Assembly (NCBI GenBank): GCA_012033015.1
Contig: JAAUPS010000003.1
Span: 1 to 64,000 of the forward strand
Direction of reading: 5' to 3'
Length of the DNA: 64,000 nt
Source of the DNA: Phormidesmis sp. RL_2_1
GTDB taxonomy: Bacteria; Cyanobacteriota; Cyanobacteriia; Phormidesmidales; Phormidesmidaceae
The notes under the pieces: generated by a model
The model's input: only the letters and a program-made list of their open reading frames with translations
Told to the model about the DNA's origin: nothing
The model's database searches: none
Shown: positions 12,041-15,393 of the stretch, piece after piece
Layout: the number at the start of each line of letters is the position of its first letter
Numbering within the stretch: position 1 is the first letter of the stretch
Program-made: the position numbers and the translations under genes

Positions 12041-13012
12041 TTATTTTAAGCGTCGCAGCACATATTTCGAAATATCTTCCAGCGCCTGACGAGACTCTGA
12101 CGGCCGTAGTTCACCCAGACAATCAAGCGCGTGCTCCACATGATGCATCGCCAAATCGCGCGAGCGGCCAATGCCTTGGCTAGAATGTACCCATTCAATC
12201 GCCTGTTCAAAGTCGTCGGGCTGAGAAAACTTGCGATCAATCAAAGCCTTGAGGTAAGGCATCTCTTCCATGGCATAGAGCACCGGGGCCGTGAGATTAC
12301 CGCTCAAGAGATCTGAGCCTGCTGGCTTGCCCAAGACCTCGCTCGAGCCCGTGAAATCTAGAATGTCATCGACCACTTGATATGCCAAGCCCAGACTACG
12401 ACCAAACTGATAAAGATTTTCAGCCATCGCTTCTGGAACGTTACTCAGCACCCCTACCGCCTTAGCGCTGTTGGCAATGAGCGTTGCCGTTTTGTAATAG
12501 CTTTTCTCTAGATAAGCATCAATCGATAGCGTCGTGTCAAAATGCTTCAGCCCTTGCCGAATTTCACCTTCTGCCAAGTCCATAATCACCCTCGAGAGCA
12601 GCTTAACGACTGCCAGATTATCCAGGTTGGCTAAGTACCAAGATGATTGGGCAAAGAGAAAATCACCAGCAAGTACCGCCACCCGGTTATCAAAGAGGCT
12701 ATGAACAGTAGGCACGCCTCGTCGAGTAGCTGACTCATCGACGACATCGTCGTGAACCAGACTAGCCGTATGAATCATTTCAGTAATTTCGGCCAAACGA
12801 CGGTGCCGTGAGGTAATGGCACCGTCAGGTTGGGTGGCTCTAGCGAGCAGCAACACGATAGCCGGACGGATGCGCTTACCCCCTGCACCAAATAAGTGCT
12901 CGGCAGCAGCATACAGAATCTTGTGGCGGGCACCCACAAGATTTTTCAGATTATCAGTAAGGAGCGCTAAATCGGCTTCTACGGGCGAAAAAAGGGAGGT
13001 TGCTGAGGTCAT
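12041..13012 (-). CDS. sds: solanesyl/all-trans polyprenyl diphosphate synthase
   Basis: A 323-residue trans-prenyltransferase that extends allylic diphosphates with IPP to make the plastoquinone side chain. Seen: GGKRIRP (44-50), the first Asp-rich motif HDDVVDESATRRG (87-99) and the second YQVVDDILDFTG (about 215-226). The residues before the first Asp motif (HTASLVHDD) are small, which fits a long-chain rather than C15/C20 product. Its ATG lies in a divergent, gene-poor region. Just downstream on the same strand (25 bp) is the sugar-kinase gene. Confidence 0.93.
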   Translation of the reverse strand: MTSATSLFSPVEADLALLTDNLKNLVGARHKILYAAAEHLFGAGGKRIRPAIVLLLARATQPDGAITSRHRRLAEITEMIHTASLVHDDVVDESATRRGVPTVHSLFDNRVAVLAGDFLFAQSSWYLANLDNLAVVKLLSRVIMDLAEGEIRQGLKHFDTTLSIDAYLEKSYYKTATLIANSAKAVGVLSNVPEAMAENLYQFGRSLGLAYQVVDDILDFTGSSEVLGKPAGSDLLSGNLTAPVLYAMEEMPYLKALIDRKFSQPDDFEQAIEWVHSSQGIGRSRDLAMHHVEHALDCLGELRPSESRQALEDISKYVLRRLK

Positions 13013-13100
13013 GGAGTACGCGACTCAGGCGGATTAGGTTACGAAATTTTAAGCTGTCTTTCTTTATTCTAAGCTATCGTGCTGGCAAAGGGACTTTTCC

Positions 13101-13220: not shown

Positions 13221-13943
13221 GGCGTTCATCGCTGGGCTGAAAGGGATCATCTAAGGCAAAAGCTAAAAACATTCTAAAACGCCTAAAAATGTGAAAAAAA
13301 ATTCAATCAAAACCTTTCAGATAATTAATCCTTATGATAGTATTGAAATACAGAAGACTTATGTGACAGCTTTAGTTCCTAATGTTTTTTGCACGTTTTG
13401 CTGAGTTACTCATCTTATCTCTTTGATAAGAGACTCGTCAGAAAGAGACCCGTCAGAGATCAGTTTGATATTTTCATTCTTACATCCATATTTTGTTTTG
13501 GATGGAGAGACAAATATCTCAAAAGCGTGCTTTAGGTTTAACGCTTCTGCAAAATCCTGTACCAAACTTCGATCACAGCACACCTTTTTTAGGTTGCCTG
13601 ATCGTAATAACTTTAAGTCTTAGGTTGTGTATACCAAAGACGGATAGCTTGGGGTAGGTTCGCAGCTCTGCGACACAGAACTGTTTACGCTACAACACTA
13701 ACGTTTCAACATGGTTTCCCATGGGTGATGAAGTGCTTCAGCTTCGTCGATTTCTTGGGTGATACTTGTTACGTAAGTGAACCGCTGAGTAATCAGAGTT
13801 TGTGGTGCCGGTTTAGATATTAGGAAGTTACGTGAGCAATCATTTGCCTGTGGTTGCTTAGGTGGAGCTTTTGATAAGACTTTTTGGCTAGGTGGTGGAG
13901 TTTTTTGTACGTGCTTTAGTCCGTTTTTAGCTTGTTGTTTGCC

Positions 13944-14060
13944 ATGTCAACCCTTTCTTTTAATGCCAGTCCGATTGCGATTGTTTTGCCTGCTTTAGGA
14001 TATTTGCTGACGGTTTATTTTGTGATGATGTGGATGAGTTCGAAGACATCAGACTTTTAG
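13944..14060 (+). CDS. candidate small single-helix membrane protein
   Basis: 38 residues beginning MSTLSFNASPIAIVLPALGY, with one hydrophobic helix (about residues 10-32) and a hydrophilic end MSSKTSDF, the layout of small photosynthetic or respiratory subunits. It does not match PsbI/J/K/L/M/T/X/Y, PsaI/J/M, PetG/L/M/N or Ycf12 as I remember them. A perfect intrinsic terminator follows 139 bp downstream on the same strand, which supports a transcript here. The ribosome binding site is weak. Function unknown. Confidence 0.45.
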   Translation: MSTLSFNASPIAIVLPALGYLLTVYFVMMWMSSKTSDF

Positions 14061-14198
14061 TGATTATTTTGATCCTAAAATGATGAGCTAAGCTGCCTTT
14101 AATCTCAGTCTTTAATGCACCATCTTTAACCGTTTTGTGACTCGTTTTTGTAATTTGCTTAGATACCTATATTGCTTAGATACCTAATTGCTTAAAGA

Positions 14199-14229
14199 AG
14201 CTCTCACGTCATCTGTGAGGGCTTTTTTT
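14199..14229 (+). terminator. intrinsic terminator
   Basis: agctctcac (14199-14207) pairs with gtgagggct (14215-14223) around a 7-base loop, followed by a run of seven T. There is no annotated gene upstream on this strand other than the 38-residue ORF, so it marks an otherwise hidden rightward transcript. Confidence 0.9.
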
Positions 14230-14272: not shown

Positions 14273-14333
14273 GTTAGCCAAGTGTAAAGGCATTCACACT
14301 TGGCTAACTCGACCAAAGCTATAGCTTTGGTCG
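14273..14333. repeat. double palindrome element
   Basis: A 13-bp hairpin (14273-14285 with 14296-14308, arms gttagccaagtgt / acacttggctaac) is followed one base later by a 24-bp perfect palindrome (14310-14333, cgaccaaagcta then its mirror). The sequence tggctaactcga also echoes the inverted-repeat family at 6367 and 36083. Confidence 0.75.
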
Positions 14334-14463: not shown

Positions 14464-15393
14464 CTAAACCTCTGGAGAAGAGGCCCCGCTCATGCTGAGT
14501 GATGCCCTAGTTGATGCCGGACTCTGCATTGTTTCTAATGTGGCCACGGGCACTTGTGCCACGTCTGGACGATATCCTAGCCACTGTTGCGAAACATGGG
14601 CAAATTGCTCTGGCTCACCACTGACATAAAACTGTGTTTTTTGGGGCAGCTTTGGATGATTTTTAGGTTGGGTGTGCTCTAGGGAGGGCAGTCGGTTGAG
14701 TCTCAAAATAGCTAGCTCTTGAGCTGCCGCAATGGTTAGGTGCTTGGCTGGATCAACTAAGGTGATGGACTTAGGCAAAAATTGCTTGAGGACAGGTGCT
14801 AGGTGGGGGTAATGGGTACAGCCGTAGACCAGGGTGTCAATGCCTGTTTCTACCAGCGGCTGGATGTACCTTTTGGCAACAGCTAAGGTGTACGGATCGT
14901 GGATGCGATCGCCCTCAATCAACGGGACAAATTCCTGACAGCCCACCTGCCAAACTTCAGCAGTGGGATTAATTTCTAAAATGGCTTGTTGATAAGCATT
15001 ACTCTTCGCCGTTGCCTGGGTTGAAATCACGCCAATTTTTTTGCCATTTTTGACCGCAGCACGAGCACCAGGCAAAATAATGCCCAAAATAGGAATCGGA
15101 AATTCTGAGCGCACTTCTTCTAGGACTAAGGCTGAACTGGTATTACAAGCCATAATGATCATCTTCACCTCGAGCCCCATCATCCAAGCAATGATTTCCC
15201 GCACAAAACGTAAAATCTCACCCTTGGAGCGATTGCCATAGGGCACTCTGGCCGTATCCCCAAAGTAAATGACTGACTCATGGGGAAGTTGAATGAGCAT
15301 CTCGCGTAATACGGTAAGACCACCCACGCCACTGTCGAAGACACCAATCTTGAAATTGGAGCGCAATTGGCTGGACAGGGCTGGAATGCTCAT
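14464..15393 (-). CDS. murI: glutamate racemase
   Basis: Makes D-glutamate for peptidoglycan. 309 residues. Seen: KIGVFDSGVGGLTVLRE (15-31), YFGDTARVPYGNRS (43-56), the first catalytic cysteine MACNTSSA (Cys83) and the second in LVYGCTHYPHLAPVL, so both acid/base cysteines are present. The last 60 residues after PKTQFYVSGEPEQFAH are a low-complexity tail. The ATG is the only sensible start. Nothing adjacent belongs to cell-wall synthesis. Confidence 0.97.
   Translation of the reverse strand: MSIPALSSQLRSNFKIGVFDSGVGGLTVLREMLIQLPHESVIYFGDTARVPYGNRSKGEILRFVREIIAWMMGLEVKMIIMACNTSSALVLEEVRSEFPIPILGIILPGARAAVKNGKKIGVISTQATAKSNAYQQAILEINPTAEVWQVGCQEFVPLIEGDRIHDPYTLAVAKRYIQPLVETGIDTLVYGCTHYPHLAPVLKQFLPKSITLVDPAKHLTIAAAQELAILRLNRLPSLEHTQPKNHPKLPQKTQFYVSGEPEQFAHVSQQWLGYRPDVAQVPVATLETMQSPASTRASLSMSGASSPEV

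Follow-up and report, generated by a model that had tools for sequence, protein, structure and literature searches.

Small membrane proteins adjust how photosynthetic and respiratory complexes work. Gene callers miss them, and the catalogues of small proteins rest mainly on a few model strains. NdhP and NdhQ are single-helix subunits of the cyanobacterial NDH-1L complex (PMC4131877, PMC7021789), and both were discovered in Thermosynechococcus elongatus (PMC4131877). SliP4 (HliR1) is a 37-aa high-light protein of Synechocystis that was first taken for a non-coding RNA (PMC5126843, PMC12850537). The SliP4 gene is located upstream of sodB, and no homologues outside Synechocystis have been reported (PMC5126843). 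Norf4 is a conserved single-helix u-protein of 31 aa whose gene overlaps gap1 in antisense (PMC5126843).

The microprotein described here is encoded in the window, that is, the whole stretch of 64,000 nucleotides of Phormidesmis sp. RL_2_1 that was analysed. Its 38-codon ORF (13944-14060, plus strand) begins with ATG at 13944 and ends with TAG at 14058-14060, and the product is MSTLSFNASPIAIVLPALGYLLTVYFVMMWMSSKTSDF. An upstream TTG at 13932 is an alternative start that would add four residues; relatives keep the ATG at 13944 instead. On one side lies sds (12041-13012, minus strand), encoding a long-chain polyprenyl (solanesyl-type) diphosphate synthase, and on the other murI (14464-15393, minus strand), encoding glutamate racemase; both products are presumed from the translations. 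AlphaFold, supplied with 40 relatives, modelled the peptide as a single helix at residues 10-37 (mean pLDDT 79), and the 1451-bp gap from the sds start (13012) to the murI end (14464) contains no other convincing ORF. A preliminary description of this DNA, which had reported a 38-residue single-helix ORF in an otherwise empty region of about 1.4 kb, was accurate on both points.

The preliminary description had also proposed a protein-level search of related genomes. In a whole-genome protein search, each of the six remaining genomes in the genus yielded the microprotein (E 1e-14 to 4e-4), so that seven of seven searched genomes, including that of the window, carry it, and there were hints of matches outside the genus too. 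A DNA-level search gave matches in just 2 other genomes of 58. In the nearest relative the DNA match ran from about 13915 to 14059, which is essentially the ORF alone; thus, the peptide is conserved where the surrounding DNA is not. Profiles built from 16 and then 40 relatives gave one strong match per genome in dozens of genomes across the class at E <= 1e-12. The second profile matched 109 of 386 high-completeness genomes of the phylum, a denominator that takes in many picocyanobacteria and genomes from other classes, and 65 of 140 genera (E <= 0.01; best E 2e-18). When the family labels of the two profile searches are summed, about 30 cyanobacterial families carry the microprotein, with carriers such as Trichodesmium, Okeania, Oscillatoria, Microcoleus, Tychonema, Laspinema, Trichocoleus, Phormidium and one member of the Chroococcidiopsidaceae. 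A lone match outside the class (G475, locus L218) adjoins neither sds nor murI and was taken as a false positive.

Pooled pN/pS values (Nei-Gojobori) were 0.38 for the genus, whose synonymous sites are close to saturation, 0.22 in family f24 and 0.06 in f1 g13. Single pairs of close relatives gave about 0.02-0.1, and the closest pairs had 1-3 nonsynonymous differences versus 11-19 synonymous ones. Judged from these alignments, purifying selection acts on the encoded protein. A lack of synonymous-biased conservation, which the preliminary description had named as the sign to watch for against the peptide, did not materialise.

The position of the gene is also conserved. Among 136 distinct members, sds is upstream and divergent in all 117 that have sds in reach, and murI is convergent with the microprotein gene in 77 of the 79 that have murI in reach. 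The spacing between the microprotein gene and sds is usually 0.35-1.4 kb. Of twenty weaker matches chosen by sequence score alone, 19 have sds and/or murI next to them in the expected orientation; the remaining one is from another class. In f31 g130 the gene adjoins murI and sds is distant. In the genomes compared, the microprotein gene occupies one position across the class, divergent to sds and usually convergent with murI; this conserved neighbourhood could be passive. A chance ORF is rejected by the homologues in the genus, the class-wide profile matches, the pN/pS values and the fixed position. The ORF at 13944-14060 is almost certainly a true gene that encodes a single-pass membrane microprotein conserved among cyanobacteria, and the early suspicion of a real, easily overlooked peptide was well founded. 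The peptide has what characterizes cyanobacterial single-transmembrane microproteins as a broad kind, namely a short conserved ORF, purifying selection and one hydrophobic helix.

Several sequence elements were noted around the gene. Of the 136 loci, 45 have an HLR1-like (RpaB-type) box, GTTACGAAATTTTACATA, some 20-40 bp before the sds start, against 0 shuffled sets; the second half of the copy in the window (13038-13055) is degenerate, GTTACGAAATTTTAAGCT. These boxes raise RpaB control of sds as a candidate regulation, and a literature search found no paper connecting RpaB/HLR1 with solanesyl synthase. In close relatives of Microcoleus/Tychonema (L155-L161, L078), the stretch from sds to the small ORF contains strongly conserved non-coding blocks such as CCCTATTGTATCGAATTGTTAAGGA and AGGCTGTTAAAGCATC, which are possible promoters or an RNA. 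NtcA boxes upstream of the ORF were no commoner than in shuffles, and a sigma-70 promoter scan of the gap found 2 against 2.3 expected by chance.

An intrinsic terminator, composed of a 14-pair hairpin and a following U run, lies at 14195-14229 on the plus strand, between the microprotein gene and the convergent murI. The hairpin has a folding energy of -17.2 kcal/mol versus -5.2 +/- 2.0 for shuffles (z -6.0), and 0 of 200 shuffles were as stable; the reverse strand folds too, less strongly. Other members of the genus have non-homologous hairpins in the same sds-murI gap, several with T runs after them, which fits a terminator kept between convergent genes and not one private to the microprotein. 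The hairpin may serve both the microprotein gene and murI. The preliminary description had spoken of the ORF's own terminator: the strong hairpin and U run were confirmed, whereas exclusive ownership was not, since the microprotein gene converges on murI. Just past the terminator (14273-14333) are two palindromes, GTTAGCCAAGTGT...ACACTTGGCTAAC and CGACCAAAGCTATAGCTTTGGTCG, which resemble dispersed repeat elements.

Members share the motif I-x3-A-x2-YL-x2-[VI]Y, with a basic tail after it, and the consensus is M-T-Y-x-x-I-P-L-I-I-P-x-L-A-x-G-Y-L-L-x-V-Y-L-L-L-x-L-A-Q-R. In 40 sequences, A17 and Y20 are invariant, I13 and Y25 are near-invariant, and position 34 is R/K in 36; in the genus of the window, the C-terminus has diverged from the family consensus. 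Relatives are typically 32-41 residues long, and several families carry C-terminal extensions to 50-117 residues (L181, L052, L080, L184-L202). In one extended group the C-terminal end is a conserved VTEVVNSQ-like motif, which may hint at a partner in the cytoplasm. Conservation along the helix has a periodicity that peaks at 100 degrees, a modest signal (p about 0.02, gap columns left out), and I13, A17, Y20, L21, V24 and L28 lie within 60 degrees of one direction on the helix. The peptide is predicted, with high confidence, to span the membrane once. The positive-inside rule is the basis for reading its topology: applied to helix 10-37 and the basic C-terminal tail, it places the C-terminus, with its Arg/Lys residues, probably on the cytoplasmic side and the short N-terminus outside, in the thylakoid lumen or periplasm.

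The microprotein was not found in all lineages. In Thermosynechococcus, to which f26/g41 was assigned by a T. elongatus PsaX query that was 100% identical in four of its genomes, the whole-genome profile gave nothing better than E 0.2, and there was no related ORF at sds or murI. Neither the profile nor the sds/murI anchors detected the microprotein in the genomes that, by size and gene order, are S. elongatus-like (f12) and picocyanobacterial (f2); where murI and sds occur together in these lineages, the gaps are about 5-240 bp with no related ORF. At L089, L090, L107, L108, L110, L240, L241, L251 and L252, all from these lineages, murI and sds are co-directional and almost touching. In microprotein carriers the murI-sds pair is split by about 1-2 kb, with the small gene in antisense orientation. 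The 38 genomes sampled from f23 gave only weak or stop-broken matches, and one weak match with two stops (L254, G282:C144:11125-11187) is possibly a remnant. No microprotein was detected in the five f13 genomes, from which psaJ is missing as well; f13 may be the thylakoid-less Gloeobacter, which the missing psaJ and the size of the genomes fit. Because whole lineages are without it, the microprotein does not belong to any universal core complex. The assembly of the window itself has two psaJ-like genes (G000:C368:5582-5689 and G000:C146:16735-16842), one much weaker than the other (45.9 vs 77.6 bits); they may stem from a second set of photosystem I genes or from contamination, and the assembly is rated 7% contaminated.

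Searches of Pfam, NCBIfam and PDB with single members or profiles gave no significant match, and those in Pfam were at chance level only, in agreement with the earlier remark that the peptide matches no known small photosynthesis subunit. No PDB chain, including those of NDH-1L, was found at E <= 10, a search whose sensitivity is limited by very short queries. The small subunits of PSI, PSII and cytochrome b6f had no Pfam, NCBIfam or PDB match to the microprotein family. PetL, PsbX, PsaX and PsaI resemble the microprotein in size and architecture but differ in having no profile or PDB match to it, and the known Psa, Psb and Pet peptides were rejected on the absent matches in these databases. 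NdhQ and NdhP are also smaller than 5 kDa, have one transmembrane helix and easily stay unannotated. However, they occur in Thermosynechococcus, which is without the microprotein both at the two anchor loci and by whole-genome profile, so identity with either is very unlikely; this exclusion comes from distribution and the absent PDB match, not from direct comparison with the NdhQ sequence. SliP4 is similar in length (37 aa) and in its one helix, but identity was rejected because the microprotein gene has sds and murI as neighbours, versus sodB for SliP4. Norf4 is likewise widely conserved, with one helix and no assigned function, but its near-invariant sequence starts with MTADQLL and its gene overlaps gap1 in antisense; identity was rejected by the differing sequence and locus. 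CydX and KdpF were excluded since the window genome has neither CydA nor KdpA, and CydA showed no association with the microprotein (23 of 34 carriers vs 14 of 25 non-carriers).

In the most likely reading, which we regard as probable on comparative sequence grounds, the microprotein serves a larger membrane complex as a small accessory subunit, stabiliser or assembly aid. The gene occurs as a single copy at a single locus, and the peptide combines a conserved helix face with a basic tail predicted to be cytoplasmic; this combination suggests such a role and is a pattern not expected of a toxin or a leader peptide. The helix would span the membrane with the N-terminus outside and the basic C-terminus in the cytoplasm, and the face formed by I13, A17, Y20, L21, V24 and L28 would pack against an integral membrane partner. 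The peptide would then act as an accessory subunit, stabiliser or assembly aid in the manner of PetL, PsbX, NdhQ or SliP4. Binding to a membrane partner is predicted with reasonable confidence; that this partner is photosynthetic or plastoquinone-linked is conceivable, and we put it at less than even. Sds makes the prenyl side chain of plastoquinone, and the kept placement beside sds weakly suggests a plastoquinone-using or plastoquinone-making partner. The preliminary description had raised a new small subunit: as a new conserved membrane microprotein it stands, by its homologues and selection, whereas photosynthetic subunit is only a candidate role.

It is possible, but unlikely, that in carrier lineages the microprotein is a missing small subunit of PSI, PSII, cytochrome b6f or NDH-1. 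Its size, single helix, inferred N-out/C-in topology, single copy and deep conservation resemble PetL, PsbX, PsaX and NdhQ, and it is present in many thylakoid-bearing families and undetected in f13, which is without psaJ too. However, Thermosynechococcus and S. elongatus-like genomes are without the microprotein and have full photosynthetic complexes, the gene is not encoded alongside photosystem genes, and the absence of a matching PDB chain disfavours a stoichiometric subunit of already solved complexes.

A role in polyprenyl or plastoquinone synthesis, for example as a membrane tether or regulator of Sds or a prenyltransferase, is doubtful. The gene is divergent next to sds wherever sds is in reach, including genomes without murI in reach, but many genomes have sds without the microprotein, and in f31 g130 it is murI, not sds, that the gene accompanies. 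At the usual spacing of 0.35-1.4 kb, neither overlap nor a shared promoter is evident.

We consider a small hydrophobic toxin of a type I toxin-antitoxin pair very improbable. Such toxins typically have this length and a single helix, but they are usually patchy and multicopy, whereas the microprotein gene has one fixed chromosomal locus, vertical conservation in about 30 families and strong purifying selection. If the ORF were incidental to a regulatory leader peptide or to a non-coding RNA that stops at the terminator, the long upstream gap and the hairpin and U run at 14195-14229 would make sense, but this reading, including the RNA from 13380 onwards of the preliminary description, is largely refuted and hardly credible, since no co-directional gene lies downstream of the ORF, murI being convergent, selection acts on the protein, even the nearest relative shows no DNA conservation before about 13915, and Rfam gave no credible match.

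In conclusion, the accessory subunit, stabiliser or assembly aid proposed here belongs to a microprotein family with about 30 families of carriers, a fixed locus and protein-level selection, yet with no Pfam or NCBIfam model. Thermosynechococcus and S. elongatus-like genomes are without the microprotein, so studies of these strains had no way to uncover it. In filamentous cyanobacteria it offers a defined target that is easily deleted and tagged. We tentatively suggest that it may be an ancient membrane subunit or assembly factor of plastoquinone-linked electron transport, located beside sds in most thylakoid-bearing lineages and lost in several model-strain lineages. If this is true, such a subunit would have been overlooked because it was lost in several of the lineages behind the usual model strains.
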